Shown: one piece after another, positions 1,083-27,582 of the stretch | Position numbering within the stretch: the first letter of the stretch is position 1 | Layout of the letters: each line of letters opens with the position of its first letter | Assembly (NCBI GenBank): GCA_036365515.1 | Contig: CM070877.1 | Coordinates: 119,046,321 to 119,110,320, forward strand | Source: Torymus aiolomorphi | Lineage: Eukaryota > Arthropoda > Insecta > Hymenoptera > Torymidae | Direction of reading: 5' to 3' | DNA length: 64,000 nt | The notes under the pieces: model-generated | Seen by the model: only the letters and a program-made list of their open reading frames with translations | Told to the model about the DNA's origin: nothing | The model's database searches: none | Made by a program: the position numbers and the translations under genes

Positions 1083-1704
1083 CCCAGGCGGAAATGATCT
1101 TCTATAATAAAAGTTAAAAAAAGTTTATAACTGATATTAGCAGATTATAAAGTCAGGATTTGAGACTTTTATAAAAGTCTAAAACTATTATAAATAGTTA
1201 TAAATAGTTATTTACTTTTTTAAGTTTTTTGGATTGCCGAAAAATGTGAATATTTGATCAGTAAAAAAAAGTAAATAACTATTAATAACTATTATCAATT
1301 TTTAATAATTGAAAATAATTATTTTAAACTTATAATTAATAATGATTTCATATAATAAGAATTTTAGAATGATTTTAAAGTTTAAATTCATTCAAAACTA
1401 TTTAAAACTATTAATAACTATTATTATCAAATAAAAAAAGTTTATAACTGATAATAACTTTTTACAGATTGATTTTATGGTTATCCACTGCAGCCCAAAA
1501 AAGTAAATACAAGTTTATAACTGTTATAAACTTTTTTTAGCTGTTCATAACAGAAAAAACTGTTGATAACTTTTATAAACTGTTACTATAGTCTCAAATC
1601 CTATCTTTATAAACAGTTATGAACAGTTATAAACTTTTTTTTAAATTATAAAAAGTTATATATTGTTATTAATAATTATTTGTAAAGTTTTATTTCCGCC
1701 TGGG
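1083..1704. mobile_element. CCCTAG-type foldback MITE, copy 1
   Basis: Terminal inverted repeats CCCAGGCGGAAAT and ATTTCCGCCTGGG bound 622 bp with no coding capacity. The interior is nearly palindromic and built of many copies of AACTRTTATAAACT-like words on both strands. TT is found on both sides (1,081-1,082 and 1,705-1,706), and deleting the element plus one TT restores the retrotransposon reading frame, so the 2-bp target duplication is well supported. Copies 2-5 of the same family lie at 5,785, 44,866, 62,020 and 62,869. Confidence 0.85.
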
Positions 1705-2238
1705 TTTAAACGATAAGTACAACTTCATATCAACCACACTCACAAATGCTATATCAATACTAACCAAGCGAAAACAAAATAAAGAATCCAAACCAAATAA
1801 TTCTCATTGTTCAAACTACCAAGAGCAAAACCTCAACGAAAACAAACCTGATACCACCAATAATAGACCTCAACAAATTAAAAATAAACTAAAAACAAGC
1901 CATAAATCACATCCAGCTAAACCTCCATGGTGGAACGATGAAGCCACTGAAATAAATATAAAAAGAAGAAATCTAGAAAAAAACCTGAAAAAAATCCAAC
2001 CACACTATCATTAAAAGCATTAAAAGAGTTTGAAATTATCTCCAAAAAAAGATTGAAAGAAATAAAACCCGAAAGCTTCAAAACCTATACCGAAACTAAG
2101 CTCTCCAGAGAATCAGATACCACAGAGGTTTGGAACACAATACATAAATTCAACAGCAGTAAACAAAACTCCTTCCCACAACCATACCTAGAAACAATAA
2201 ACAACATGAAAAACTTCATTACAGATTTCTGCCCATAA
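1705..2238 (+). pseudogene. ORF2 linker between endonuclease and RT, frameshifted
   Basis: Downstream of the MITE the frame continues with a segment containing KPPWWNDEA, the conserved linker motif of many insect non-LTR ORF2 proteins, then shifts frame to 2,053-2,238. A stop at 2,236-2,238 separates it from the reverse-transcriptase frame that begins about 80 bp later. It has no known catalytic role; it joins the endonuclease to the polymerase. Confidence 0.6.
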
Positions 2239-2319
2239 ACAGCCTCCTACAATAAACCCCCAGAGTACAACTTTAACACTGACTCAAACAATATCGCTGA
2301 TCTAGACCAACCATTCACC

Positions 2320-3180
2320 ATGAAAGAACTTAACATAGCCATAGATTCCTGTAATTCGAACTCCAGTCCTGGACTGGACCAGATAGACAACCTAATGCTT
2401 AAGAACACCCCAGAGAACTTCAGACTCCTCTTGCTACACACTATAAACGAGATGTTCACTACCAGTAGCTTTCCTCAAGAGTGGAAAGAATTTCTAGTGA
2501 TACTAATTCCAAAAAAAGATAAAAATAAGTTCAGACCAATCACATTGGCATCATGCATGCTTAAATTAACCGAAAAATTAATCCAAACACGCTTAATATA
2601 CTACTTAGAGAAAAACTCCATCCTACCAGAATCACAAAGTGGTTTTAGAAAGTTCAAATCATGCTCAACAAGCATAGCCTACCTAGTCTCACAGATTCAC
2701 AAAGCGTTTATAGAAGACTCACACTTATTCGGATTATTAATAGATATCAAAGCAGCACTTGATATGGTAAACCCAAATCTGCTACAAGACATACTGAAAG
2801 ACCTCGAAATTCCTATCAATATCCGTAAATTTATATTCAACCTGATGGTAGATAGAAACCTATACTTTAAAATCGATCACAAATTAGAAGGTCCATTTTT
2901 TAAGCATTTGGGAGTCCCACAAGGTTGTGTTCTGAGCCCAACCTTATATCTAATATACATCTTATACCTAAATAAACACATCACAAAAAAGAACGACATA
3001 CTACAATTTGCTGATGATACAATAATCTTTAATATAAACAAATCAATTAAGGATGGCTTAAAAACTTAGAGCATAATGCCAACAAAATAATTGAATTTTT
3101 TGAATCCATAGGGCTAGACATCGCCCCTCAAAAATCACAGCTAATTATATTCTCTAAATCTAAGCTAACCAACAAAAACA
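2320..3180 (+). pseudogene. ORF2 reverse transcriptase domain
   Basis: Reverse-transcriptase blocks are seen in order: SSPGLDQI, FRPITLASCMLKL, QSGFRKFKSCSTS, LLIDIKAALDMV (catalytic Asp), LGVPQGCVLSP and the FADDT active site near 3,010. The open frame runs to a stop at 3,067-3,069, and the thumb region continues in another frame up to the next ORF at 3,183, so one frameshift separates them. The enzyme copies the element RNA into the nicked target. Confidence 0.85.
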
Positions 3181-3182
3181 AC

Positions 3183-4817
3183 TTGTTTATCTCCTTAAAA
3201 GATAATACAATCACTAATTCCAAAGCAGTTAAATACCTTGGTATTTGGCTCGACACAAAATTAGACTGGAACATTCAAGCTCAAGCCCTGATAGAAAAGA
3301 CTCAAAAATCTTTAAACACCATCAAAGTTCTAAGAACCACTTGGTGGGGCGGCCACCCACAAGTGCTACTTAATGTATACAGAGGACTTATTAGGAGCTC
3401 CATAGATTATAATTGCTTCTGCACAAATATTAAAAATACCACACTCAAAGTAAAAATAAACAAACTACAGTACAAAGCCATTAGACTAGCTCTAGGCTAC
3501 AGGATTTCAACTCCCATAAACGTTATATTAGCAGAATCTAAAGAACCAACCATTAACATCAGAACTGGATTTTTAGCAGATAAATTTGCAATTAAATTAA
3601 ACTCCATAGAATTAGATAGACTGTCAGACATACTATGCGAAATATACGTCATTTCCAAAAACAAGAACAAACTTCAAACATTACTAACCATATTCCCACT
3701 ATTCAAAACATACATAAACCACTTTTTCAAAAAAAAACAAATTATCCACAAATCTTGCCTACCACTACCCTTTCCATACAACCTAAAAGATATTATAGTA
3801 GACGATATCATATCAATAGATATACTAAAATCAAAAAATCCAATAGAACCCTTTCAGAAAACTTTAAATAAAAACTTCACAGAATGCATAGAATTTTACA
3901 CAGATGGTTCAAAAATAACTGAAAACAACTTCACTGGAGCTGCAATATACTCCCCTAAACTAAACCTAAAACTTAAATTTAAAATTTCAAGAAGTGCCTC
4001 AATCTTTACAGCAGAAGCTATAGCTATATTGCAAACTCTAAAATTTATTCAACAGAACAACACTTCAAACTCCAAAATATTCACAGATTCACTATCAGTA
4101 TTACAAGCTTTGACAAAATTTTCTCCCATAAAATCCAAAAACACATCATATCTAATACTAGAAATCCTAACCCTAATATCTAAGTTTAAAAACAACAACA
4201 AGAAAATAGAAATACACTGGATACCCGCCCACATAAACATTGATGGAAACGAGACGGCAGACAAATTAGCTAAAAAAGCAACTATAAACGGAGAAAACAT
4301 AGACTTAAAAATTCCATACTCAGACTTCTTTGAAGAGGTAAAAGATGCAGCAAACACAAAATTTAAACATGTAATTAATTTCCAACGACAATACAAAGGA
4401 AAACAATACTTTGATAATTATTATAATGATGGTCCAAAATCATGGTTCCACGACAGCCACTTCCCTAGATTTCACATCACCACAATCAATAGATTACGGG
4501 CCAATCATTATAATCTCGCTGAAAGCTTACATAGGAAGAATATGATTGAATCACCCCGATGTAAATGCGGATATAGAGAAGAATCTATAGAACACACAAT
4601 AGTGGACTGCCCACTATATTCTAAAGAAAGAACAACGCTAAACAAAAAACTCAAAAATAACAAAACCTCAGTCCCATTAGACATCATCAAAACACTCAAA
4701 ACCCCAAATAGCAAAGACTCCAAATTTATTACTGAATTTTTACATCCTTGCAAACTCTTTGATTACGATGCCTATCCTATAACCACTACCACAAGCAAAA
4801 TAAAAACTTTCCAATAA
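3183..4817 (+). pseudogene. ORF2 RT thumb, RNase H and C-terminal zinc knuckle
   Basis: This open frame of 544 codons begins in the RT thumb (VKYLGIWLDTKLDWN). Its RNase H domain spans about residues 235-365: FYTDGSK (Asp), FTAEAIAI (Glu), IFTDSLSVLQAL (Asp) and GNETADKLAKKA (final Asp), preceded by HWIPAH. Near the C terminus a Cys-rich motif CKCGYREESIEHTIVDC (C-x-C-x8-H-x4-C pattern) is typical of I/R1-like ORF2 tails. The piece is intact in itself but lacks an in-frame upstream polymerase. Confidence 0.85.
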
Positions 4818-6730: not shown

Positions 6731-6809
6731 TAAAAACTAAATTCTAGTTTTTTTTTGGAAAATCTATGTACGAAATTGAGTTTTATAAACATGTATGTTT
6801 TATTTATAG

Positions 6810-7345
6810 GATCAAATAATAATCATGGCGTTTTTGCTGCTACTATACTTTCAGAAAACTTAGCTAATGGTGAATTGAATATTCCAAATCCACGGCCAAT
6901 TCCTAATACAGATATTGTGTTGCCATTTGTAATAGTTTCTGATGAAATATTTGGATTATCCACCAATATTATGAAGCCATATAAACGAAGATTGGGACTT
7001 AATTATGAAGAGAAGATTTTCAATTATCGTTTAAGTCGTGCAAGATTCACAATTGAATGTGCATTTGGGATCTTATGTACTAAGTGGCAAATATTGAAGA
7101 ATGCCTTAAAGTGTGATCTACCAAACTCAATAAATATAGTTACTTCTTGTATTTGTTTACATAATATGTTAATTGCAAGAAATCGAATAGTGGTAGAGGA
7201 ACCCCCCAACGTCAGAGAATATGAAATAGATAATGTACCACCCAATATTGCGGTAAGACATTTACCACATATGATTAGAAGTGAACTAAAAGAATACTTT
7301 GTATTGGAACAAGGATCACTGGATTGGCAACATTTGCAAATATGA
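6810..7345 (+). pseudogene. HARBI1-like transposase, C-terminal DDE block
   Basis: The block follows an intron acceptor (TTTATAG) and reads GSNNNHGVF, LPFVIVSDEIFGLS (second catalytic Asp region), MKPYKRRLGLNYEEKIFNYRLSRAR, IECAFGIL (catalytic Glu region) and SCICLHNM, the usual ending of Harbinger nucleases, to a TGA at 7,343. It is open throughout. An ATG at 6,755 lies in the intron and is unlikely to be used. Confidence 0.8.
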
Positions 7346-7765
7346 TTTTATCATGAAATAGGAATTTTTATTATAAAGAAAAATCTATACTAGTTGTAAA
7401 TAAATTAATGTAATCTCAAATTATTTTTGTATATTTTGTACTTGGGACACTCTGTTATTTTCTAATAAATAAATAAATAAATAAAGTGTTAATTATCTAA
7501 TGAAATGTGTTTTTATTAAAAAAAAAATACATAAAAAAATAGAAGAAATTAAATACAGTTTTATAATAATCTTATGTAGAAAATTTCGGAGTCAATGAGA
7601 CTGCTCCGTTTTTTTTCGTCACAAACAAAGATTACAGATAGTATACTCATATTATAAAAAGCGCTTGAATCACGGATGCAACAGTCTTAATAGACAGAGC
7701 ACTCGTTTTTGAAAAGCGTTCGCCACGCCACGCCACGCCACGGTGCATTTGTGGAGACTCCCTAA

Positions 7766-8011
7766 GAGCGAATCCACATTAGGTGCCATGAGCTTTGTGC
7801 CATGAGCTTTGTGCTATACCAGAAAGAAAGTATTGTTCTACATCTACATACTTATTACCACAGGATAAAGAGGAAGGACCTACTCTCGTATTGAACAGAG
7901 CATAGATGTCAAACATAGATAACAGTTACATAGATGTCGAACAACACTTTCTTTCTGGTATGGCAAAAAGCTCATGGCACAAAACTCAGGGCACGTAATG
8001 TGGATTCACTC
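7766..8011. mobile_element. Hairpin MITE, GAATCCACATT type (copy A)
   Basis: Termini GAGCGAATCCACATTAGG and ATGTGGATTCACTC bound 246 bp that fold into one long hairpin (GCCATGAGCTTTGTGC and GCACAAAGCTCATGGC-like arms). TAA flanks both ends; the left TAA is shared with the Harbinger element. Related hairpins with the core GAATCCACATTGCATGCCG lie at 22,125 and 31,601. Confidence 0.8.
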
Positions 8012-8014
8012 TAA

Positions 8015-8030
8015 GGGACAATGCACATAA
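8015..8030. mobile_element. Solo terminus GGGACAATGCACA plus TAA
   Basis: Thirteen bases resembling the ends of the GGGACTGTCCACATA and GGGAGAGTGCACATA families sit between two TAA triplets, with no matching right end nearby. It may be a remnant left by deletion or imprecise excision of a related element. Confidence 0.35.
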
Positions 8031-8108
8031 GAGCTGTGTCGTGCTGTGTCGTGTTGTGCCTTGCTCTTGCCGTGCTGTGCTGTGCTTTGCCATGCTGTGT
8101 GCTGCTAC

Positions 8109-10595
8109 CAGAGATGAATAGGGAGATTGCCAGCGCCCCGGAAAAAAGTGAGGCGGACTTCGGCGCGCGGCGCGCTACTGGCCTCTCGCGGCAGGGACGT
8201 CGAACTGTACACACGCCACCTAATCGGCTGTTCAAACATGTGTACGGCGTGGAGCGGGGGAAGCGGGAGAAGACGGCTTGGCGGCTCGGTGCACGTGCAC
8301 TGAGCGTGTGTATGCTGGAGCGGCCCGGCGCGCCGCGCGCCTGCCGTCTCTGTTTACTTCTCCCGCAACAATCCGACAACGGCCGAGCGGCCTGACAATC
8401 GACGCTCGGTCGAACATTTTTATTACACGCACTAATTAACGAAATTTTTAACTCAAAACTACCAAACCAAAATTCTAAATCGCAACCCAAGCCCGAAGGG
8501 GGGGAGATAAACATAAACGATTTTAGTGCTACGGATTAATATCGTACCGGTAGCCGTGGCGGCTAAGCCGTGCAGTTACTTTTGCTCCATTCTTTTGGAT
8601 CCAAGTTCGATTCCCGTTCGCATTTTTTTTTTTTTTTTTTTTTTCACTATAACATAAGTATGTAAAATTTCTTTCATTCTATTATTATTGTATAAACATT
8701 TTTTTACCTCAATTTTTGTTTTCGGTTTGTCCCAGATAACATTGCAAGTAAAATTTTCGTTTTCAAAATTATTTTATTAAATGCGCTAATGTTATAAGTA
8801 CTATAATATTTTGGGTAATATTTGTTTACCCAGTTAAGAATATTTTGAGTAAATTAATTCACTGAAAATGAATTGATTAATTAATTTAATACATGGTTAT
8901 TAATAATTTAATAATAATCGTTGTGCACGCAAGTTCAATTTCCTAAATACATATTCCCGCATTCACGTTCTCTAATCCCAAAAATATATGTTATTTGTTA
9001 TATAAGTAAGTTTCTATTAATATTATTGATTAAATCCTAATCAATAAATATCACAACTGTAAGAACAGAATGACCAATTTGAAAAACATCTTTAATCAAA
9101 GAATAATTAGAATACCGCTTATCTGTATTTCCAAAAGCACGTTTTGCCAGCCGAATATACGATTCGGTGATGTACAAAAAATACGATTGTGCTTTAATTA
9201 TTTATTGAACCCTTAAAGAAACTAACATGAAAATCCAAAGTCAAAATCCAAACGGGTTAAGGTGATGAGCCTGAAAGATTTTACACTTTGCATTTTTATT
9301 ATACACATTTATTACTCTAGTGGAGCAGGCTTGCAAATAATTAATTAAACTTTCAATTATAATTATTCAGGTATTCTTTGAAGGAAATGGTCATTACACT
9401 ATCTATAATTATTCAGTTTAATAAGGATTATAATTTTAATCATTAATTAAACCCACGTTTAATTAAAAATAAGCATTCAATTGTTAATTAAACCCGCGTT
9501 TAATTAAGAATTAAAATTGCAATTGTTAGTTGAACACGTTTAGTTAGTTTAATTCGGAATTAAAATTTCAATTGTTAATTAACATTCTTTAACATATTAT
9601 AAACGAAAATCGCGCCGCAGAAGGCGGACGAGTTTTGCAAAAACTCGAGTATACTCTACGCAACACGATCCTGCTTTTGGAGTGAATATGCGATTGTGCC
9701 GCGTATAAGACCCAAATTTACGTTTCGAGACCCGATTTTCTAGCAGGAGGCTTCAAGGAACATTTCCTAGCGTTTTTAAATACTACTATTCTGTAATACA
9801 AACGACGAAGCCGCGGCAGAAATCGGGGGAATTTAAGAAAACTCTGGTATAGTCTGTACACGACGGGAACGCGAACCCATTGCAAAAGCAATTTAGATTT
9901 AGATTTCCTAAATTTCTTCGCCTTTAGTGGCGCGTTTTTCGTTTAGAACATGTTCAAGAATGCTATTTTACCCATGTAATTAACGATTGAAGTATTAATT
10001 CTTAATTAATTGCGGATTTAATTAACGATTAAAATTCGAATTCTTTATTGATGATGGTATAATTGATATTTTCGCAACCTTAAGTAGTGGAGTTGAAATT
10101 TTAATAATTTCAAAAACCATGTTTTAATCAATAATAACTCTTCTATCAAATAATCGAAACATATTTCTGCGAAATATAATCAATTACAATCTGTATAATA
10201 TGAAAAATAAAAGAATTTTTATGTTATATACATTTATTACTATAGTGGAGTTGAAATTTGAATAATTTCAAAAATCATATTTGAATTAATAATAACTCTT
10301 CTATAAAATATATAATTATATACTTACTTTTACAGCGACCTAATTATTTTACTCGCTTTCCCATTCATTAATTTTTTATTCTATTTAAATGTATCAAATA
10401 GCCAAGACTTATGACTTTTGTGACAACTTTTCGAAGTACGTCAATAATCATAAAAGAGATAGGCAAACAATATAGAAAATTACAATAATCTCTGAAATAA
10501 GACAATGCGAAAAATTCCGTACTTTTTGAAGCTACATTTGTCATTTTTAAAGCGATATTCTTAATTAGTCCAGCTTCATAGAAAGCTGGACTCCA
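8109..10595 (+). repeat. P element left terminal inverted repeat
   Basis: The outer 300 bp is very GC-rich (CGGCGCGCGGCGCGC-like), followed by a tRNA-like block, a T-run and then AT-rich sequence with many TTAATTAA palindromes. It pairs in inverse orientation with 17,945-21,696 almost without gaps to 10,440 and more weakly to about 10,595. ORFs in the GC part are by-products of base composition. Confidence 0.85.
8525..8640 (+). repeat. tRNA-derived segment in the left P TIR
   Basis: The stretch GGTAGCCGTGGCGGCTAAGC resembles a pol III A box, and AGTTCGATTCCC is an exact B-box core; a run of about 20 T follows, a pol III terminator. Acceptor arms do not pair properly, so this is not a functional tRNA but a tRNA-like or SINE head, class II (Leu/Ser) in look. 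Its inverted twin is at about 21,181-21,290. Confidence 0.45.
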
Positions 10596-11059
10596 TCGAA
10601 TATTGCGATCAAAGCAAACTCGACTTGATAACATTTTTTTCCACCCCTTCTTTAAAGTATTTGGTAATAGTAATATCTTTAGTTGCATTATTATTCTCTA
10701 TTTTTTTCATTAATAACGAATCGATAAAATTTGGAATTTTACAGCGTAAAAAAAATTTTTTTAAATTAGATCTCAAACTTCTTAATGTTTTTAATTCTAA
10801 TTTTTTTCCGAGAACAAATGATTTTTAAATTATAAAAGTTAAAAAATTAACAACGTATCGTTTACTAAACTTATTACGTTACTTTTTACATGATATCTTC
10901 AATACTATATAACAGTATTATTATGGTTATCAGAATTTATTCAATGTTATTTTCAAGCATTTATGTATTATTAGTATTTTTACAGATCTTTTTTGGAAGA
11001 GTCTGAAAAAATGAATTGCTAAATTTTTTCTTGACTTTAAATGGTCTGTGTATTCTTGG

Positions 11060-11438
11060 AAATCCGCGGCGCGCGCGCGGGCTACGGGGGCTCTTGTCCG
11101 CTCGCTCGCGCGCGTGTGTTGTTGTTCCGCGTTTGGCGGTTTAAAGAGCTTGCATTTGTTTTTATTCAGACTTTAAGTTGCGTGGCGCGTGCATAATCGT
11201 TGTGACAGTAAGCCAGGGATAGCCACATATTTCTAGTGCGTGTGACAAAACTGAAGTGTATGAAAGTGACATTTGTGCTAATTAAAGGTGCGCTTTATTA
11301 ACAATGTGTTTTTAGCTACCGCCGAAAACAGTTAACTTTTTGTAGATTATTCTTTAACCGAACAACGCTAATAACTTACGCTAAGTACTTGTGTACTTTC
11401 ATTTATTATAATGTAAAGTGTAGTGTACTTTTTCTATA
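11060..11438 (+). promoter_or_regulatory. Putative P transposase promoter and 5' UTR
   Basis: A CpG-rich patch (11,066-11,135) in otherwise AT-rich DNA lies upstream of the transposase ATG at 11,439. A TTTAAAG box and a TTCAGACTTT initiator-like site (about 11,170) follow it. It lies inside the unique centre of the element, not in the TIR. The assignment is by position and composition only. Confidence 0.35.
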
Positions 11439-11592
11439 ATGAGTGAAAGTGTTAAGACGATGATGCCAAAGCGAGAGACGACCTACAGTCGATGCAAATA
11501 TTGGCATTGCAACAATGGGAAGTACAATGGTTACCATTTGTATCATTTCCCTGCTAAACAAGAAAAGCAGCTACAGTGGATAGAAAATTCAG
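11439..11592 (+). CDS. P transposase exon 1: first half of THAP domain
   Basis: The ATG at 11,439 opens 51 codons plus one base. Residues include C19 and C24 (SRCKYWHC), the first two zinc ligands of a C2CH THAP finger, then YHLYHFPAK and the conserved Trp of QLQWIENS. The exon ends at CAG|GTTAGT. The phase matches an acceptor at 15,159|15,160, which brings in the missing C-x2-H (CQLH) 45 residues after C24, within the THAP spacing. The THAP domain binds the transposon ends. Confidence 0.8.
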
Positions 11593-11604
11593 GTTAGTAT
11601 TGTA

Positions 11605-13960
11605 CACATTTTCTATTAGGATAAAATCGTCGCTTCCCGGTTAAAAGGCGTTATTTATAAATTGGCTTTATAAAAATGCGTTATCTGGAAATCGGCCTGA
11701 AAGAGGCGTTCGCTCGGAATGAACCTGAAGAAGGCGTTTTCCGCGCGTAAATTTTTTTACTCTAATTAAAGTTGGCCGCATTGTCAACATTTTCTTGATT
11801 TAATTTCAAAAATATATTATATGATAATTAGATACAATGTTTGAAATTAACTGCAAATGCGGGGCGAAAGTAAAATTAACATATTTTGTGTTTAACGATT
11901 TATTTATACAATACTATATTGATTTTATAATAAATATATAATGAATATATGTATAACTAATATTATATAATTTTTTTTAAACACGTGTCCCAAACAGATT
12001 TTTTCTACTACTTCTTTATACAATAAGGGAACGGAAAGTACTCGTGTACAATCAAAACCGACATCCTTTTGCTCGGTATTGAGAATAAAAAAATGATTTT
12101 TTTGTATTTCCAGAAAAATACTAAAAAATTACTTTTTTTCTTTAAATGTTAGCCATTTTATCAGGTTAAATAATACAAAAATTAAAAAAAAAAGAGAATC
12201 AAACTTAAAATTAAATTAAATTAAAAGTTACGTGAGTTTTAAGATAAGTTTGAGATACACGAAAAATTTTGAAAAGCGGTAAAAGCGATATCTCCAAACT
12301 CATAACTTTTCAAGAATTTAAAATTTTTTATTTTTCAAAAAAGGAAATGAAAGCTCTCGCTTTCTAGTTTCAAATTCTCTATTTTGCCTTAAAAAAATTT
12401 TGACGACTTTTAAGGTCGTTACAAAGGCTACTTTTTTGTATAGATATATTCATAAATATATATACATATATGTGTGCGTATGTGTGCGTGTGTGTGCGTG
12501 TGTGTATTTAATACACAGAACTATATACCTGAAAGTTGTATAAAAAAACGCGCATTTCGAGCCGTGATTTGGGAAAGAATGAAAAAAAAAATAGTACACA
12601 TTTCGATACAAGTGTGTGAAGCGGATGATTCGCATACGAGTGCAGTTCGTCCGCGCGAGCGAAGAGATAGCGACAAAAACACCCGTGCATCGATCACCCG
12701 CTCTACCCACATGCATTGAACTATTTTTTTAACGAAGTGAACGAAACTCGGAGAACAATTATTATGTATGCATAATGTATATACTTGAAAAGTGTGAAGT
12801 TTGGCTTGCGAGAAGCGAGAGTGACAATCATACGAGTCAAGGGCAAGATAAGGAGGTTGGAAGCACAGTCCTACGAGAAGCGTACGCGAAGTAAATTGAT
12901 CTACGCATGGGCGTACTTCGCGTACACCGTGTGTAAAACAGCTACTTTGCGCGCGCAAACGAAGCACGAAAAAGTGAGTTTCGCACACTCCGTTAAAAAA
13001 AAAAAATCAAATTTTTCCCAGGTTAACGAGGAATTTGTATATTACCCAACTAGGGAAGCATCAAGAGCAAGTCCAGAGAATATGTTAATTACCACACGAG
13101 CCGAAGGCGAGGCTGACAAACATGTGCTCTGGGATGGCCCTCTTCATCCCCGTGTTGCGTATACTGTTTTTCACCATACCCAGGCCAAAAATACCAGATT
13201 CGCGTTTTTGAGTCAGAAGCGAAAGCGGTACTTTCGGCCAGTATGGTGAATAAATAGAAAGTTAGGCGATTCTCACATGCACGGATATTGCCGCTCGAGC
13301 GGCATAATCACCTTCTTTATGTACGCGTAGTGTATACGCTATTTTTTTCTCACAAGTTACGGAATAAACTATGAAAGGAACAAAAAAAAGCAAATTAAAG
13401 GTCTTGTTTTCCAGTTTAATTTGAATTTAATTGATTTTTTTTTCAATTTTTGTATTATTTTTTCTGAGAAAATGGCTAGCATTTGAAAAAGGGTAATTTT
13501 TTATCATTTTTTTCTGGAAATACAAAAAAATCATTTTTTATTCCCAATGTCGAGAAAAGGGGTGTCGTTTTTTATTATACACGAGTACTTTCCGTTTCGT
13601 TATTGTATAAAGAAGTAGTAGAAAAAATCTGTTTGGGAGGTGTGTTTAAAAAAAAAAATTATATAATATTGGTTATACATTTGCCCCGCATTTGCAGTTA
13701 ACTTAAAAAATTGTAACTAATTATCATATAATATATTTCTGAAATTAATTCAAAAAAATGTTGACAATGTGGCCAACTTAAATTAGAGTCAAAAAAATTT
13801 ACGCGCGAGATAACGCCATTCTCAGATGAATTAGAAGTTAACACCTTCTTCAGGCTGATTTCCAGATAACGCCTTTTACAAGCCGATTTTTAAATAACGC
13901 CTTTAAACCGAAAAGCGACGAAATAATAGTTCAGCAATAAAAAAAAAATGTGTACAGTAA
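11605..13960. mobile_element. Inverted-repeat element nested in the P transposase intron
   Basis: Arms of about 500 bp face each other. The left runs from TGTACACATTTT through CGTCGCTT, GGCGTTATTTATAAAT and GGAACGGAAAGTACTCGTGT to about 12,120; the right is the complement from about 13,490 to 13,960. The centre has a TG microsatellite, an ATAGTACACATTTCG module and no recognisable protein. It begins only about 12 bp inside the splice donor. Superfamily unknown; a clear target duplication was not found. Confidence 0.65.
12460..12510. repeat. TG/CA microsatellite
   Basis: A short TATATG and TGTGTGCG run lies inside the nested inverted-repeat element. The ORFs drawn through it on both strands are spurious. 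Confidence 0.6.
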
Positions 13961-15159
13961 ATGATTTTTTTAAACACGTGCTATTAATTTATTTTAATTT
14001 ATAAAACGAAATGATAATAGAGAGAACAAATGAGACCATTGCTTTAACGTGATGATAACTTCTTACTTGTATCAATTTAATAATAAAAGTTGAAATTTAT
14101 TATGTATATATTTACCGGTGATTTCATATGTGTAATGGATATAATAACAGAGTAATAAATTAATTACAAAAAAAGTCATGACTTTTTTGCGCGATAAAAA
14201 AAGCAACAATTTTGTATTAGAAATAAATAAAATAGGATTCTGTATTTCATCAAGTTCGTTTATTTCGTGATTTTTTCTTCATTTTTAATCGTGTGGTTCA
14301 TTTATTGGAATACCCATTTTTACAGCAATATAAAGAATATTATTGCTACTTTAACTTTAAAAGATAATTTGTTTTCTGATCTGTTTTTTAATTACTATTT
14401 TAAATGTAAGTACCCTTCCTCTTCCCACTATAGCTTGACATTTTGAAATTAATAATCTGCTTTAATCTTAATATCGCGAAAGCACGCTTAACTTTTTTAT
14501 TATTTTAATTTTCGAAAATCTATTACCTAACAAACAATAGTTCAGCTTTCCGTCTTGAAAATATTTTATTTATATGTAAGTTGTGAATTAATTTCAAGAA
14601 AATATATGCTAATAAATGTTCATAAAATATAGTTTTATCCGAAGGTAAGCAACTAAAAAAATAATAATTTTTAAAAATTACAAATTAATATATTATGCAT
14701 GAACGTAATTTTTTTTATCGCTATTATTTGTTTTTGATGTTGTTATTGAAAAAGTAATATTTTTCTTAAGAACTTCTTCTTAAGAATAAAGGGCATAGCT
14801 AACGAAAATTGTTGTTTTTCAATTGTCGAGAATTTCATTCTGCATCTAGTACATAATTAATATAAGCTCAATGTTAAATGTAAAGTCTGTTAAAAGTGAA
14901 TAATTTATTTTGAAAACGTTCAAAATTGATAGAAATAAGATTATTTTTCCAATATCTTAAATGAAATATTTTAAACATGTTTTGTAGGAAACTTTTTTCT
15001 TTTTGGTACAAAGTACCTTTAAAATAACCAGAAATGCTACTGATAGAAGAAAAAATAATTTACTTTAAGATAAATAACAGATCATTGATAATTATAGTAT
15101 AATTACAAAAAAAAATATATATATATAAGAAATCCTATATCACTTTTAAATTTTCACAG

Positions 15160-17302
15160 GAAACATTTTACTTTCCAATTGGTCCACAACTTCCATTAGA
15201 TCTGCAGGACTCTGTCAACTACATTTCAAGGACGATGACTTCAAATTCAACAAAGAAGAATTTAACTTTTGAAGCCGAATAGCGTTCCTCTTCATTGGCA
15301 AAGAGCTGAAAATGGCGGTGAAGAACTGCCTGCACAAGCGCAAGCTCAGCTTGAGATGCATGCAGAAGAAGCCGAACAACAACAACCAGAACAAGAAAGG
15401 CAACAAGAACAACATCAGAGGCAACAACAAGGACAGCAAGAAGAACAACAAGATCAACAACATCAAGGACAACAACAAGGACAACAAGAACAACATCCTC
15501 AAGAAGAACATCAGCAGCAACAGGTAGTACAAGACGTTTATGTAAATGAAACGGCAGAAGAGCCCCAATCGGAAAAAGAGAATGATTTTATAGGTACGGT
15601 GAAAAGGTCATTGACATCTGTATCTTACCCCTCTGGTAAGGAAATTTTTTCTTATTCTGAAAAGGATGGTGACCTGTCGTTTCTTCATTATGAGCCCCCT
15701 GCTAAGACTATTAAAGTAAACGTTAGTTCAACAACTGAAGACTCTACTCCAATTGCTTCACCTTTGAGAAAACGCGTTGATACAATAGTTCAGTATAAAG
15801 TTTATATTTGTAAATTAAAAAGTAAATTATTAGCTGCAGAAACAAAGATTCAACAATTGCAGAGAGCCCTTAAAACTGAGAAAACTAAGAACAGTCGTTA
15901 CGCTAAACGTTTAGAAAAAAATGTGAACAAAAAATTTGCCGATATTGACGATCTTTTGAAAGAAAAAGATATCCCTGATATGGCTAAGACAATGTTAAAA
16001 TTACAATTGCACAAGCCCAACACGCCATATACAACCGATGAGAAAGACTTGGCAAAACAAATTTATTTTCATTCAGCAGCTTGTTATTCTCGATTAAGGG
16101 CTGGGGGATTAGTTTTGAATCAACGGTTAGATCCTGGGTAGCGGAATGTGATATTGTCCCAGGTATCAATGACGCAATTTTTAAGAAGATAGGACAATAT
16201 TTGATGCTCCTTCCGGAGCAAGAGCGATTGTGTGCGTTGAAATTTGATGAAATGTCCATCAGAGCGGCAGAAGAATATTCGAAAAAATATGATGTAATCG
16301 AAGGTCTTGTCGATATGGGGAAAGATCGTAGAGATTCTAAAGTCGCGAAACACGTGTTACTATTTTGCATTGATAGTATTAATGCCAACAATTCATGGCG
16401 TCAAATAGTAGCTTTCGGATTTAACAAAAATGGCACTAGTGCAGAAGAGCTATTTGAGATCGTTCCCCAAATTGTAACAGAACTTCGAAAAGTAGGAGCA
16501 AATATTCGTGCGATTGTTTGTGATCAAGGTAGCAACAACCAAAAATTATTTAAATTATTGAAAGTATCTCCAAAGTATCCTTATTTTATTTTAGATTCTG
16601 TAAAGATTTTTGCAATTTTTGATTGGCCACACCTTATCAAAAGATTGATAGCACAGCTAAGAGCCCACGATTGCATTTATGTTGATGATGAAAAAATTAT
16701 TTCTTTCACCGATTTAAAGCAAACCTGGAAGCTTGACAAATTTCATAGTACATCAAATTTATTAGGCTTTTTATCAGAAAATCACTTTAACCCTGATAGT
16801 TTTGATGCTATGAAAGTAAAGCTTGCTTTTCAACTGTTAAGTCGTCGAATGGCATGTGCAATTAAATTAGCCGGCGAAGATGTTCAATCAGGGTTATCTT
16901 CGGATACATGGAAAAAGTCAGCCGATTTTGTTGAGACAATGGATGCTGTTATCGATGCATGTAATGTATATAGTTTGAAAAATCGACATGCATTGAAGCG
17001 ACCATTGTCTGACAGAAATCCAGAAATTCAACAGCGACTTGAAAGTTTTCATCGAGTGGTCAGAGAAATGGTATGTAAATAATAAAAAAGGCAACAAGGC
17101 GCCTTGTTTTTATGGGTTACCTCTCACTGCTCGTGCTTTACTAAGTCTGTATTTGGAAATAAAATCTTCATTCCCCGACTTTGAATTAACAACAGGTCTG
17201 TGCATTCAAGATTCTGTGGAGCATGCTCATTCTAAGTTGCGCGGAAGAGGTGGATTTAATCCGAATCCTACCTGTAGAATGTATCGAAGAATTATAACTT
17301 GA
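15160..17302 (+). pseudogene. P-element transposase, exon 2 (THAP end, coiled coil, DDE nuclease)
   Basis: Exon 2 completes the THAP finger (LCQLHF, then LKPNSVPLHW, the AVPT-like box). A Gln/Glu-rich stretch (about 15,360-15,520) and a coiled coil (about 15,790-15,950) follow. The P transposase core then shows SWVAECDIVPG, ALKFDEMSI (catalytic Asp), VCDQGSNNQ, IFDWPHLIK, GLPLTARALLSLY and QDSVEHAHSKLRGRGG near the end. Three frame changes are needed, each in or near a homopolymer: about 15,265, 16,100 (G run) and 17,075. They could be decay or consensus errors. The rejoined product would be about 780 residues, normal for the family. Confidence 0.82.
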
Positions 17303-17944
17303 CTGCTTTAAAAAGTACTTTACGTAAATTTTTTAACTATTAAATCATGAGCGTACTTTTTCCCAATGATAGTTATAAGTTCCCGTTTTTGAATAATAAT
17401 AATGACATTATAATATACGTTCTGGTGTAAATATGTTGATAATGTTCTAAATTATTAATATAAGGCGACTCGATTTGTTGTATCGTTTTGTAATTATAAT
17501 GTATAAAGTGTGTAAATAACATAATTATTATCCTTTTTAGGATATTTTTCAGGTATATTACACAAGACAAATTATTAGAAAATTACATTTTCAAGGTAAA
17601 ATTTTTATAATGTTATAAAAATATTTAAAACTTTATAAAAATACAAAAAATAATTTAGGATTCCTATGGCTAATAAGGTATTATCGTTTTCAGATCGTTT
17701 TATTTTCAGGTGGGGGATGATTTTGGTTGCCTTCTCGTTGGTGCCCCCCGAAAACAAATGAGCTTATTGTAATTAATCGATGCAGTGCAATAAGTTCTTT
17801 TGGCCAAACAACCAATAAATTAGTTTAAAAAACACCATGCTTAATATAAAATATTAATCAAATTTTTCATTTATTTTACGTAAAAAATCTTTTTATATTC
17901 AAAATTCTGTTTTGTTAATAGATATGAAAAGATATTATTAGATA
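17303..17944 (+). other. P transposase 3' flank
   Basis: AT-rich non-coding sequence between the transposase stop and the right TIR. An AATAAA at about 17,814 could serve as polyadenylation signal. Nothing else was recognised. Confidence 0.3.
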
Positions 17945-19370
17945 AAAAGCCTTCAATGAAACTGGACTAATTACCTCTCTTTCTCTTGTGTGCATCCGTC
18001 CGTCTCCTATTAGAATATCGCCTTAAAAATGATAAACGTAACTCCAAAAAGTAATTTTTCGCATTAGTCGTATTTAAGAGATTATTGGGACGTTCTAAAT
18101 TGTTTGCAACAATTTTAAGAAGTACGAAATATAAATATAAGAGATTTTTCAAAAGATTGTTAGAGTGCTTGCCTTCTCTTATATATGATTAACGCTATTT
18201 AATAAAAACTTAGTCCATGAAATGTTTAATATTTACGTACTTCTAAAAGTTGTCACAAAAGTCATAAGTCTTAGCTATGTGATACATTTAAATAGAATAA
18301 AAAATTAAAGAATGGGAAAGCGAGTAAAATGATTAGGTCGCTGTAAAAGTATGTATATAATTATATATTTCATAGAAGATTTGTTATTAATTCAAATATG
18401 ATTTTTGAAATTATTCAAATTTCAACTCCACTACAGTAATAAATGTCTATAACATAATAATTTTTTTTTTCGTATTATACAGACTATAATTAATATTTCA
18501 TAGAAATATGTTGTTTCGATTATTTGATAGAAGAGTTATTATTGACTAAAACATGGTTTTTTAAATTATTAAAATTTTAACTCCACTACAAGGTTGCGAA
18601 AATATGAATTATACCATCATCAATAAAGAATTCGAATTTTAATCGTTAATTAAACCCGCACTTAATTAAGAATTAATATTTCAATCGTTAATTACATGGG
18701 TAAAATAGCATTCTTGAACATGTTCTAAACGAAAAACGCGCCACTAAAGGCGAAGAAATTTAGGAAATCTAAATCTAAATTGCTTTTGTAATGGTTTCGC
18801 GTTCCCGTCGTGTATAGACTATACCAGAGTTTTCTTAAATTCCCCCGATTTCTGCCGCGGCTTCGCCGTTTGTATTATATTACAGAATAGTAGTATTTAA
18901 AAACGCTAGGAAATGTTCCTTGAAGCCTCCTGCAAGAAAATCGGGTCTGGAAACGTAAATTTAGGTCTTACACGCGGCACAATCGCGTATTCACTCTAAA
19001 AGCAGGAACGTGCTGCGTAGAGTATACTCGAGTTTTTGCTAAACTCATCCGCTTTCCGCGGCGCGATTTTCGTTTATAATATGTTAAAGAATGTTAATTA
19101 ACAATTGAAATTTTAATTCCGAATTAAACTAACTAAACGTGTTCAACTAACAATTGCAATTTTAATTCTTAATTAAATGGTTTAATTAACGATTGAATGC
19201 TGATTTTTAATTAAACGTGGGTTTAATTAATGATTAAAATTCTAATTCTTATTAAACTGAATAATTATAATTGAAAGTTTAATTAATTATTTGCAAGCCT
19301 GCTCCACTAGAGTAATAAATGTGTATAATAAAATTGCAAAGTATAAAATCTTTCAGGCTCATCACCTTAA

Positions 19371-20350
19371 CCCATTAACGCACAAATGCACATTTTTGTG
19401 CACACATTTTCAAGTACAGAATTCTATTGGAAAAACAAAGTGATTTTTATTCAAAATCCTATATAGGGGGTTTTCGAGGGTGCTCTTTCAGAATCTGCAA
19501 CTTATTTTTTAAAAAAAAGTCAGTAAGTGTATTATTTTTGAGTTTTTAAAAAAAAAAAGTAAAAAAATTTAATAAAATTTTTTTTTCAAATCAATTTTTG
19601 TTACTGTTTCTGTTTTTGGATAATCATATTACCGCCAGAAATCGCGATCCGAATGTCTGGCGTTTCCAAAACACTGGTTGTGAATCTTTTTTCCCCTTTT
19701 AGCTTTTCCAAAATGGCGGATTTTGTGAAACAGCGTAATGTTAAACTTCATGATTTTTTTTCTCAAAAGAATCACTCAAAAAATACGTATGAATTTTTTC
19801 AGAAGTTTTTGAGACATTTTTTGATTTTTCAAAAATGTTAAAAATTAAAAAATTCAAAATTGGTTCAAAAACTTCTGAAAAAATTCATACGTATTTTTTG
19901 AGTGATTCTAAGCATTTTTTGTTCTATAACATTTTTTCGTTAAGTTCATACATTTCGAGAAAAAAAATCATGAAGTTTAACATTACGCTGTTTCACAAAA
20001 TCCGCCATTTTGGAAAAGCTAAAAGGGGAAAAAAGATTCACAACCAGTGTTTTGGAAACGCCAGACATTCGGACGGCGATTTCTGGCGGTAATATGATTA
20101 TCTAAAAACAGAAACAGTAACAAAAATTGATTTGAAAAAAAAATTTTATTAAATTTTTTTACTTTTTTTTTTTAAAAACTCAAAAATAATACACTTACTG
20201 ACTTTTTTTTACAAAATAAGTTGCAGATTCTGAAAGAGCACCCTCGAAAACCCCCTATATAGGATTTTGTATAAAAATGACTTTGTTTTTCCAATAGAAT
20301 TCTGTACTTGAAAATGTGTTCACAAAAATGTGCATTTGCGCGTTAATGGG
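19371..20350. mobile_element. Palindromic TTAA element in the right P TIR
   Basis: Ends CCCATTAACGCACAAATGCA and its complement enclose 980 bp that fold back over the whole length (GAATTCTATTGGAAAAACAA on both arms). TTAA flanks it at 19,367-19,370 and 20,351-20,354. The left P TIR holds the matching empty site (GGGTTAAGGTGATG at about 9,254-9,267), proving insertion after the two arms existed. CCC ends with TTAA point to the piggyBac group; no transposase is present. Confidence 0.85.
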
Positions 20351-20702
20351 TTAACCCGTTTGGATTTTGACTTTGGATTTTCATGTTAGTTTCTTTGAGG
20401 GTTCAATAAATAATTAAAGCACAATCGTATTTTTTGTACAGCACCGAATCGTATATTCGGCTGGCAAACCGTGCTTTTGGAAATACAGATAAGCGGTATT
20501 CTAATTATTCTTTGATTAAAGATTTTTTCAAATTGGTCATTCTGTTCTTACAGTTGTGATATTTATTGATTACGATTTAATCAATAATATTAATAGAAAC
20601 TTACTTATATAACAAATAACATATATTTTTGGGATTAGAGAACGTGAATGCGGGAATATGTATTTAGAAAATTGAACTTGCGTGCACAAAGTAGTCGTTG
20701 TG

Positions 20703-20890
20703 CAATAAAAACATATTTTTTTTTTCACTATAACATAAGTATGTAAAATTTCTTTCATTCTATTATTATTGTACAAACATTTTTTTTACCTCAATTTTTG
20801 TTTCTGGTTTGTCCCAGATAACATTGCAAGTAAAATTTTCGTTTTCAAAATTATTTTATTAAATGCGCTAATGTTATAAGTACTATAATA
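20703..20890. repeat. Inverted local duplication within the right P TIR
   Basis: The segment from TTTTTCACTATAACATAAG to GTTATAAGTACTATAATA repeats, in inverse orientation, the sequence at about 21,000-21,180 of the same arm. The left arm has only one copy (8,640-8,815), so this is an extra fold-back copy gained on the right. Confidence 0.6.
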
Positions 20891-21180
20891 ATTTAATAAT
20901 AATTTATTACATTATTAATAACCATGTATTAAATTAATTAATCAATTCATTTTCAGTGAATTAATTTACTCAAAATATTCTTAACTGGGTAAACAAATAT
21001 TATCCAAAATATTATAGTACTTATAACATTAGCGCATTTAATAAAATAATTTTGAAAACGAAAATTTTACTTGTAATGTTATCTGGGACAAACCGAAAAC
21101 AGAAATTGAGGTAAAAAAAATGTTTGTACAATAATAATAGAATGAAAGAAATTTTACATACTTACGTTATAGTGAAAAAA

Positions 21181-21290
21181 AAATGCGAACGGGAATCGAA
21201 CTTGGATCCAAAAGAATGGAGCAACAGTAACTGCGCGGCTTAGCCGCCAGGGCTACCGGTACGATATTAATCCGTAGCACTAAAATCGTT
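21181..21290 (-). repeat. tRNA-derived segment in the right P TIR
   Basis: This is the inverse of 8,525-8,640: read on the minus strand it contains GGTAGCCCTGGCGGCTAAGC and AGTTCGATTCCCGTTCGC followed by a T-run. Small differences from the left copy (CCCTGG against CCGTGG) improve the A-box arm slightly. It travels as part of the TIR. Confidence 0.45.
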
Positions 21291-21879
21291 TATGTTCATC
21301 TCCCCCCCTTCAGGCTTGGGTTGCGATTTAGAATTTTGGTTTGGTAGTTTTGAGTTAAAAATTTCGTTAATTAGCGCGTGTAATAAAAATGTTCGGCCGA
21401 GCGTCGATTGTCAGGCCGCTCGGCCGTTGTCGGATTGTTGCGGGAGAAGTAAACAGAGACGGCAGGCGCGCGGCGCGCCGGGCCGCTCCAGCATACACAC
21501 GTTCAGTGCACGTGCACCGAGCCGCCGAACCGTCTTCTCCCGCTTCCCCCGCTCCGCGCCGTACACACGTTTGAACAGCCAATCAGGTGGCGTGTGTACA
21601 GTTCGACGTCGCTGCCGCGAGAGGCCAGCAGCGCGCCGCGCGCCGAAGTCCGCCTCACTTTTTTCCGGGGCGCTGGCAATCTCCCTATTCATCTCTGCTG
21701 CTACGCGTGGATTACTTATAGAACTAATGTCGCTCATTGGCGAATGTTTAAGTATTAGCCAATCAACGGCGTAGTTTCACAGGTAATCCATACTCACTAC
21801 GGCAAAAGCACAGCCAGTACGGCAACAGCAAGGCACGGCACGGCAAAGCACAACTCAACACAGCACGGCACGGCTCTAA

Positions 21880-22106
21880 GGGACTGTCCACATAGCTTCT
21901 CATGTGCCTTGTCTCTTGTCTCATGTCTCAAGCGCGAAAAAAATCGTTGTCCGCAATCTTAATCATTTCTAATCTATGGTCATTTTTTCTGTATAATTTT
22001 CTATTGCCATAAACTATAAATATACAAGAATTCGGACAACGATTTTTTTCGCGCGTGAGACATGAGACAAAAGACAAGGCACACCAGACGTTATGTGGAC
22101 AGTCCC
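21880..22106. mobile_element. Hairpin MITE, GGGACTGTCCACATA type
   Basis: Termini GGGACTGTCCACATAGC and TTATGTGGACAGTCCC bound 227 bp forming a hairpin whose arms include GCCTTGTCTCTTGTCTCATG and CGGACAACGATTTTTTTCGC. TAA at 21,877-21,879 and 22,107-22,109 is the duplication; the left TAA is shared with the preceding MITE. Confidence 0.85.
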
Positions 22107-22124
22107 TAAATACTATGACACTTA

Positions 22125-22317
22125 CAGTGAATTCACATTGCATGCCGTATGCCGTATGCCGTCAGAAAAAAAGTTGTCTGAAATCTATAGGATTTATAAC
22201 TCTATGGTTATAAATCCTATAGGAATTGTAACCATAGAGTTATAAATATTATAGATTTCGAACAACAACTATTTTTCTGACGGCATACGGCATACGGCAT
22301 GCAATGTGGATTCACTG
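22125..22317. mobile_element. Hairpin MITE, GAATCCACATTGCATGCCG type (copy B)
   Basis: CAGTGAATTCACATTGCATG and its complement bound 193 bp; the arms contain three tandem GCCGTAT words. TTA is duplicated at 22,122-22,124 and 22,318-22,320. It interrupts the left end of the next hairpin MITE, whose CACTTAAAAAA motif supplied the TTA target. Copy C is at 31,601. Confidence 0.85.
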
Positions 22318-22725
22318 TTAAAAAAAAACAGTGCACGGACACAAGAAATAGCATTGGTTGTATATCTATATACACGGTGTCTCATTTTAATCTATGCAGC
22401 CAAATATCTCCGAATGCAGGCCAGATACAGAAAAATGGTTCAGATAAAAATTGTTCGTGACGATGGGGGTCAACTTTTGGTCACCTTCAATTTGACCTTG
22501 AGATCATTTTTCAAGGTCATTTCAAGGTTAAGATCATTTTTTCAAATTAGAACCCCTATTTCTGACGTCGGAATCGGATAGAGCGGGAAATTTTACGTCC
22601 AAAACCGTTCTTTAAACATTTTTTTGTGACCTCCACAAGGTTAAATCAAGGTCAAATGCTTAAAAATTGGTCAGAACGCGAAATTTCATAGTTGTCTCAA
22701 GCAGAACAAGCCTTGATAAACCCAA

Positions 22726-22860: not shown

Positions 22861-23308
22861 ATCTGTACCCAACACCAGACCCACCAACTCTTATGAATTT
22901 TGATGTGCTAAAACCGAATCTGGGGCCAGAATTATGCCATCACCTTCCATTTTTTATTAAAACTCAAGAAATCACCCTCCCACTTACGAAAATTCATGAT
23001 TTTATGGGAATAAGCGTTACGTAAAAAAATATAAAGTGAAAGAAATTTTTATCTTTATCACAGGAATAACGATGTCAACAGTTTAAAATCTAATAATTGA
23101 TAACAAGATTAACTAAGAGGTTAAAATACAAGTGTTAACTATTACATTGTTGAAAATAAGCAAGAATTGAATTTTCAACAATTTGTATTGAATTTGTAAC
23201 TTAAGTTAAATTTCCAAGACACGAAGGTTTATTTGTTCTCAATATTTTAAAAAATAATTTAAAAATTAAATCTTTTTCAATTATCTCGTCTATAAGTAAA
23301 GTTACATC

Positions 23309-24280
23309 ATGGCGGATTATCCAGCTGATCAAATAGTTGAAATGATAATGGTTTTAGGGCAATGTAATGGTAATTATCGTGCAGCAGCTAGGTGGTATGC
23401 TGAGTTGTATCCACAAAGAAGACATCCTACTGATTTAACAATCAGAACTTTAACTCAAAGAGCTCGCGGTGGTCACCTTATTCGTCAGCGCAGGCACCAC
23501 GAATACGATGAAAACGATGCTCGTGTCGTGACTATTTTAGCAATTGTTCATCTCAACCCGCATATTAGCACACGCCAAATTGAAAGAGAAATTGGTATTT
23601 CCCGTCCGACGGTTTCAAGGATTCTGAGAATTATTGATTATCATGCCTACCATATAACTTTAGTTCAGGAACTAAGGCAGAACCATATTCAATTGCGCAT
23701 TGAATTTTGTCACTGGGCTTTAAAAATGGTAGAAAGTGATCCAGATTTTTTCAAATACGTCCTTTTTTCGGATGAGGCAAAATTTTGTAGCGATGGGCGA
23801 CTGAACAGGCACAATTGCCATTATTGGTCAGATGTGAACCCTCAGAGCGATGGATCATCAAAATCGGTGGAGCATAATGGTGTGGTGTGGGAATAGTCAA
23901 TGGTTACTTGATAGGTCCGTATTTCTTTGAGCGAAATGTCGATAGAAGCAGCTATTTAGAGCTAATAAGAGATCATTTGCCAGTACTTTTGGAAAACGTC
24001 GACCTAGCTACAAGACAAAGAATGTGGCTTCAGCAAGATGGTGCAGCACTACATTTTGCACGAATCGTTCGATTTTTAAATAACAACTACAATGACAGGT
24101 GCTAATTCACCAGATTTTTTTTGTGGGGGTACGTAAAAAATGTAGTTTTTGCTCAACGGCCTACAACAAGGGAAGATTTTAGGGATAGAATTCGTAGAGC
24201 TTGCGAATCCATTTCTAGAGCAACGTTGCTCAGGACTGTGGATCATTTCCAACGGCGATTACGCCTGTGGCAACGGAGGT
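23309..24280 (+). pseudogene. Tc3/mariner-like transposase with N-terminal HTH
   Basis: The ATG at 23,309 opens an N-terminal helix-turn-helix (YPADQIVEMIMVLGQCNGNY), a second HTH (HISTRQIEREIGISRPTVSR) and a DDE/D core with VLFSDEAKF (first Asp) and MWLQQDGAALHF (second Asp). A frame change occurs at about 23,890. Near 24,105 the stretch that should carry the third acidic residue (the WPxRSPDLTP box) is deleted; FFLWGYVKNVVFAQRPTTRE follows in another frame to a TAA near 24,280. Without the third catalytic residue it cannot be active. Confidence 0.8.
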
Positions 24281-27036: not shown

Positions 27037-27582
27037 GGGGATGCCTTACTCGTACTATTACCGACCGAGCAATTCACACAGTTTCAAGCTGATTAAAAAT
27101 AAAATACGTCGAATCACAAAAAATCAAGAGAACACTCTTCTGTGTTTTTTAACGTTCTATCATCCAGTCAAAGTTTGGAGTCGAAATATCAAGCCGTTTT
27201 TTCAAAAACTTTGAACGAAATTAAATTTAATTTCGAGCAATTCACACAGTTTCAAGCTGATTAAAAATAAAATACGTCGAATCACAAAAAATCAAGAGAA
27301 CACTCTTCTGTGTTTTTTAACGTTCTATCATCCAGTCAAAGTTTGGAGTCGAAATATCAAGCCGTTTTTTCAAAAACTTTGAACGAAATTAAATTTAATT
27401 TCGTTCAAAGTTTTTGAAAAAACGGCTTGATATTTCGACTCCAAACTTTGACTGGATGATAGAACGTTAAAAAACACAGAAGAGTGTTCTCTTGATTTTT
27501 TGTGATTCGACGTATTTTATTTTTAATCAGCTTGAAACTGTGTGAATTGCTCGGTCGGTAATGGTACGAGTATGGCATCCCC
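27037..27582. mobile_element. TTAA foldback family 1, copy 1 (with internal duplication)
   Basis: GGGGATGCCTTACTCGTAC and its complement; TTAA at 27,033-27,036 and 27,583-27,586. Arms contain GCAATTCACACAGTTTCAAG and end in the palindrome AATTTAATTTCG. The left arm carries a 170-bp direct duplication (27,065-27,231 against 27,235-27,402). It was inserted into the TTAA inside the left TIR of the larger element. Other copies are at 30,954, 43,142, 45,985 and 46,367. Confidence 0.85.

Follow-up and report, generated by a model that had tools for sequence, protein, structure and literature searches.

Introduction

Terminal inverted repeats (TIRs) of up to several kilobases around a P-type THAP transposase have been described for Galileo of Drosophila. 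A TIR length of about 0.3-1.2 kb is given for this transposon, and in D. mojavensis the longest TIRs are described for non-autonomous copies and never for nearly complete ones (PMC3573991). In the account of D. willistoni, a Galileo copy of 9,021 bp has TIRs of 4,246 and 4,680 bp and no transposase, a nearly complete copy has TIRs of 765 and 757 bp, and the consensus target is GTATTAC with 7-bp duplications and three 8-bp cases (PMC4168063). Galileo THAP domains bound multiple TIR sites in vitro, and no transposition was detected in the work reported in PMC3688188. In the Galileo studies considered here, the long arms belonged to defective copies or were examined with proteins that had been reconstructed. 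The Galileo transposase gene is said to be intronless (PMC10990002). Here we analyse a 64,000-nucleotide stretch of the parasitoid wasp Torymus aiolomorphi (GCA_036365515.1, CM070877.1, positions 119,046,321 to 119,110,320 of the forward strand), called the window in the following. Positions 8109-21697 of the window hold a 13.6-kb transposon whose inverted arms enclose a broken P-type THAP transposase.

We assign a probability of roughly 0.93 to the reading that this element belongs to the cut-and-paste DNA transposons of the P superfamily and is one defective member of a large family, in which the two tips of a pair are typically separated by 12-13 kb. As its reading frames indicate, the window copy is disabled by frameshifts. 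The family includes at least one copy, in the following copy K, with an open frame of 990 amino acids. A first-pass annotation had proposed a P-superfamily transposon with kilobase TIRs at this place, which is borne out by the alignment of the arms over more than 2 kb and by the P-type transposase between them.

Results

Borders and inverted repeats of the element

Symmetric tips, CAGAGATG on the left and CATCTCTG on the right, place the borders of the element at 8109 and 21697. The left end from the first-pass annotation thus stands, while the right end, given as 21696, has to be corrected. The 17-base tip CAGAGATGAATAGGGAG has exactly two matches in the window, one at each border, with 0.06 expected at up to three mismatches. 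To delimit the arms (Table 1), the window was searched for inverted repeats and compared by BLAST; the arms form a single long inverted repeat that is interrupted in the right arm; apart from the inserts they are continuous, as the proposed structure demanded. Identity is 95.5% for the block 8109-8914/20904-21697 and 98.2% for 8921-9260/20351-20689, these two blocks making up the outer 1.15 kb. Further inwards it amounts to 90.4% with gaps (9251-10446/18230-19376) and to 83% for the innermost approximately 100 bp (10463-10561/18012-18107). An example of the direct repeats in the left arm is the pair 10085-10152 and 10243-10310, with 91% identity.

The greater length of the right arm is due to two pieces, a piggyBac-like insert of 980 bp and an inverted duplication of 214 bp. 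The 980-bp palindrome begins with CCCATTAACGC and ends with GCGTTAATGGG between two TTAA copies. Since the left arm carries the empty site CACCTTAACCCG, the piece is a later piggyBac-like insertion; the three further right arms used for comparison (C1, C2 and C5) lack it. The inverted duplication recurs in right arms of copies from C5 and C1. A further insert of 2.3 kb, located in the putative intron of the transposase gene, is also present in the C1 and C2 copies and absent from copy K.

A tRNA-like block in the TIRs, likewise part of the first-pass annotation, was rejected as judged by two programs only. According to ARAGORN, neither the window nor any of 16 fetched loci contains a tRNA, and with Rfam tRNA matches were absent from window 7500-22500 at E≤1 and from seven loci at E≤0.1. 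The Rfam matches that were obtained lay below the gathering scores and belonged nearly all to microRNA families, with one small RNA family.

Table 1. Features of the P-type element and its insertion site (window coordinates).
Feature	Position	Strand	Remarks
Target site duplication, left copy	8102..8108	.	CTGCTAC; from sequence
Left terminal inverted repeat	8109..10561	+	2,453 bp; outer part GC-rich; internal direct repeats
Transposase exon 1	11439..11592	+	Start codon and first half of THAP domain; from translation
Putative intron	11593..15159	+	GT...AG, phase 1, would split THAP domain; from frame and splice sites
Nested intron insert, 2.3 kb	11627..13921	.	Own inverted arms about 84-85% alike
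Transposase exon 2 region	15160..17299	+	THAP second half, Q-rich linker, RNase H N, GTP-binding insertion, RNase H C
Right terminal inverted repeat	18012..21697	-	3,686 bp, inserts included
Palindromic piggyBac-like insert, right arm, 980 bp	19371..20350	.	TTAA copies 19367-19370 and 20351-20354
Inverted duplication of arm sequence, right arm, 214 bp	20690..20903	.	20716-20939 matches 8635-8859
Target site duplication, right copy	21698..21704	.	CTGCTAC; from sequence

Target site duplication

The duplication flanking the element is 7 bp long and not 8 bp as first annotated: the 8-mer GCTGCTAC includes the terminal G of the right tip, and its eighth base agrees in only 8 of the 20 copies with exact duplications (our own count). 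Exact 7-bp duplications were found for 17 of the 20 tip pairs fetched for this comparison and also for the window element, the copy at C2:205926648-205943389 and a two-arm copy at C4:108788282, i.e. for 20 of the 23 copies examined. Other copies therefore share the border of the window element, together with a target duplication. All 20 exact duplications have T at position 2 and 17 of them A at position 6, while weaker preferences were seen at position 3, with 11 cases of A, and at position 1, with 15 cases of G or C. The combination of TIRs with a 7- or 8-bp duplication that characterizes the P superfamily is thus present. A 7-bp duplication is also made by 1360/Hoppel/ProtoP.

One tip pair, C1:114235989-114263797, spans 27.8 kb and is flanked by 7-mers that differ at two positions, due either to mutation or to ectopic recombination between copies.

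The transposase gene

The exon 2 region of the window transposase is spread over three frames, with breaks at about 15.27, 16.11 and 17.05 kb. These three breaks were not found in the C1 and C2 copies, which have breaks of their own. In Pfam the window transposase matched PF21787 (RNaseH_N, 2.3e-27), PF21788 (GBD, 3.3e-9) and PF21789 (3.2e-6); the THAP half-exon alone stayed under the cut-off (E=0.021). Among proteins of solved structure, the best relative was the Drosophila P transposase (6p5a, 5.4e-19). The arrangement of the reading frames suggests that a 3.6-kb intron splits the THAP domain.

Copy K (C1:173629101-173641797, 12,697 bp) carries its 990-residue open frame in exon 2. When exon 1 is joined to it at the predicted splice sites, the product matches the THAP model above the Pfam cut-off (2.4e-8) as well as RNaseH_N (5.1e-26) and GBD (1.7e-9), and it aligns with 6p5a at 3.1e-29. 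At the positions corresponding to D230, D303 and E531 of 6p5a, which are named as catalytic residues of the P transposase in PMC7776569, copy K has D, D and E. An RNase H transposase with a GTP-binding insertion, as expected for the P superfamily, is therefore found in both the window element and copy K, and copy K adds the catalytic triad and, given the predicted splicing, the N-terminal THAP domain.

Copies in the genome

Searching the assembly (1.08 Gb, 21 contigs) with the tip pattern, in which G or A was allowed at position 14, gave 319 exact tips (160 forward, 159 reverse), with 0 and 3 matches for the reversed-pattern controls. Pairing was carried out for the first 100 of these tips (C1 and part of C2), accepting facing tips less than 30 kb apart. 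It provided 27 facing pairs with spans of 3.7-27.8 kb and a median of 12,546 bp. The outer 592 bp of the element have at least 44 matches in the genome (40 of 722 candidates scored) and the transposase core at least 123 (117 of 1005 candidates scored). Ten of the 123 listed core matches, counted by eye, are free of stops and have open frames of 900 residues or more; one of the ten belongs to a lineage that is only 69% identical. Among viral contigs the tip pattern had no match, and of four stretches matching the transposase none was confirmed.

The tip starts with CAGAG and thereby resembles hAT transposons, whose tips have the form CAG.G. In conjunction with the 8-bp duplication reported at first, this might point to a hAT-type or other element that captured a P transposase. 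The duplication is, however, 7 bp long, such that membership in hAT, for which 8 bp are required, was rejected. In addition, P-type transposase matches lie between the tips in 19 of the 27 facing pairs, and we consider a capture very improbable.

The 3.48-kb two-arm copy at C4:108788282 lacks a transposase match and is flanked by the 7-bp duplication ATTGAAT; it is a non-autonomous derivative made up of two TIRs, of the kind known from Galileo. At C1:210723763-210744390 about 8 kb of other sequence apparently interrupts the left arm near TIR position 130; the outermost part of this arm was read at the tip only.

Evolution of the arms

Arms were read in two copies with intact frames, copy K and copy M (C1:187281944-187293826). 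Copy M has a stop-free transposase match in a 748-residue open frame, and its arms show 96.4% identity over about 2,470 bp. The arms of copy K, which end at 2,165 bp on the left and 2,776 bp on the right, are 97.9% alike over 1,808 bp. Since copy K combines such arms with a 990-residue frame, kilobase arms are not just a matter of decay. Long arms would be a decay product if one or a few dead copies of a short-TIR P element had acquired an inverted duplication. The broken transposase and the arm inserts of the window element are in line with such an origin, as are the long TIRs of non-autonomous D. mojavensis copies described in PMC3573991. Copies K and M both contradict this origin, leaving it very improbable.

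Divergence between the two arms of an element was 0.4-7% in the segments compared, while 9-26% were found between the window subfamily, K and M. This comparison covered four segments, with copy M missing from two of them and the C2 right arm from three. The lower divergence within elements than between lineages indicates concerted evolution of the arms in each lineage. In segment 9377-9690 the two values come close, with 7.1% within the window element and 9.1-10.8% to copy K. In the young window subfamily we counted (own sums) 4 fixed left/right differences in 1,241 columns of the outer part (8109-9408) and 47 in 1,124 columns of the inner part (9409-10561). With few outer and many inner fixed differences, copying between the arms looks episodic and stronger towards the tips.

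Phylogenetic placement of the transposase

A tree was calculated from 37 of 39 transposase-core rows, P0003 (Trichomalopsis) and P0091 (Lasius) having been dropped due to too little coverage of the compared region. The window element, copy K and P0018 lie inside a fully supported clade of 21 rows. Most of these rows are without a name; the named ones, Athalia, Neodiprion, Vollenhovia and Cataglyphis, all belong to the Hymenoptera. The Drosophila P row is found elsewhere in the tree, on a long branch and in an unsure position. Further named protein matches came from Trichomalopsis, Lasius, Ceratina and Lasioglossum. Being located in a well-supported clade with hymenopteran named rows, the transposase does not constitute an isolated lineage.

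This placement bears on the idea that the element is Galileo proper, whose range would then include a further insect order as a result of either descent or horizontal transfer. Kilobase TIRs with internal repeats, 7-bp duplications at GTATTAC-like targets, a derivative consisting of two arms and the insertion of another transposon into an arm would all agree with this idea, this likeness being one to published descriptions, as the tree contains no Galileo row. It is opposed by the hymenopteran identity of all named rows in the clade and by the putative intron in the THAP domain, as Galileo is described as intronless (PMC10990002). In three protein searches, two of which scored only part of the candidates, none of the hits was named Galileo. 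Altogether we regard an identity with Galileo as unlikely.

Sequences surrounding the element

Hairpin-forming repeats flank the element on either side (7724-8053 and 21879-22318), and its insertion site appears to be a low-complexity stretch resembling miniature inverted-repeat transposable elements. Directly to the left, at 6734-7345, lies a DDE_Tnp_4 transposase fragment, which we take to be Harbinger-like. The remainder of the window contains a non-LTR (long terminal repeat) retrotransposon remnant on the + strand (428-4817), whose successive open frames encode endonuclease, reverse transcriptase and RNase H domains, and a fragment with Tc3-type helix-turn-helix transposase domains (23300-23896). 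Two tandem arrays with periods of 168 and 381 (27066-27403 and 45979-46747) share unit sequence at a distance of about 19 kb; the first one consists of two copies that are 100% identical.

Discussion

For a cut-and-paste P-superfamily transposon of this architecture, the transposase would bind sites inside the arms via its THAP domain, pair both tips, excise the element and join it to the target at a 7-bp stagger. Repair of the donor gap would increase the copy number. The arms may be kept alike when one of them is copied onto the other, by gap repair, template switching or hairpin-primed synthesis, and the same kind of copying could produce the inverted duplication in the right arm.

Some of the data weigh against this picture. 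For 46 of the 100 listed tips no facing partner was present within 30 kb by the rule used. Three of the 20 fetched pairs had non-identical duplications, two with one mismatch and one with two. The RNase H C-terminal model stayed under its cut-off for copy K (20.9 versus 24.0). Arms of the young subfamily cluster by side rather than by element in their inner half, so that copying between the arms must be patchy. Conservation along the arm was fairly even across 16 tips, with lower windows at a poly-T and near 9359, where the alignment breaks. Consequently no functional core stands out, and none was found in the arms by conservation across these tips.

Beyond the single copy, the family may represent a hymenopteran P-superfamily lineage in which the coding element itself is 12-13 kb long and its arms of more than 2 kb, repeatedly re-copied, would be part of the transposition machinery with many transposase sites and not debris. 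The preference of the 7-bp target for T at position 2 and A at position 6, which is shared with Galileo, would then point to a long-armed branch predating the fly/wasp split or to strong convergence. We advance this view tentatively and with less than even confidence. Hundreds of tips and copies with unbroken frames and arms of more than 2 kb would make the function and the upkeep of the arms directly testable, and a single genome offers three element lineages whose arms evolve together.

Compared with the canonical P element of about 3 kb, the present family shares with that of D. melanogaster the transposase type, the catalytic residues, the THAP domain and cut-and-paste transposition with target duplication. 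It differs by its length of 12-13 kb, its 2-kb arms and its 7-bp duplication from the 2.9 kb, 31-bp TIRs and 8-bp duplication given for D. melanogaster in PMC7776569. P elements of Anopheles gambiae also have a P-type THAP transposase and reach up to 7,545 bp, but their TIRs are described as 27-31 bp long and their duplications as 8 bp (PMC1562414). The same transposase type occurs in zebrafish Pdre2/THAP9, for which 13-bp TIRs, 12-bp subterminal repeats and 8-bp duplications are given (PMC10983969). 1360/Hoppel/ProtoP is a P-superfamily member of Drosophila by its published naming (PMC4168063).

The closest agreement is found with Galileo, in the form in which it is described in PMC4168063, PMC3573991 and PMC3688188: both have a P-type THAP transposase, long internally repetitive TIRs, two-TIR copies and transposable element fragments within the TIRs. 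Both also generate 7-bp duplications, and the Galileo target GTATTAC agrees with the preference at positions 2 and 6, the other positions being weaker in the present family. Unlike Galileo, the present family has two intact-frame copies with arms of more than 2 kb that are 12-13 kb long, an intron that probably lies inside the THAP domain, and a hymenopteran host. Searches of open-licence papers, judged by the titles and abstracts listed and with Repbase entries outside their scope, brought up no long-armed P element in Hymenoptera. The first-pass annotation had placed the element far outside the P form, possibly as a new lineage. This goes too far, as Galileo has kilobase TIRs and the transposase nests in a hymenopteran clade: the element is a P-superfamily member with Galileo-like architecture and not a new kind. 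The part that holds is the novelty of an intact-frame copy with arms of more than 2 kb in a hymenopteran, along with the putative intron inside the THAP domain. What stands out against the known systems is the joint occurrence of an intact-frame transposase, arms of more than 2 kb and a size of 12-13 kb, together with the concerted evolution of the arms.

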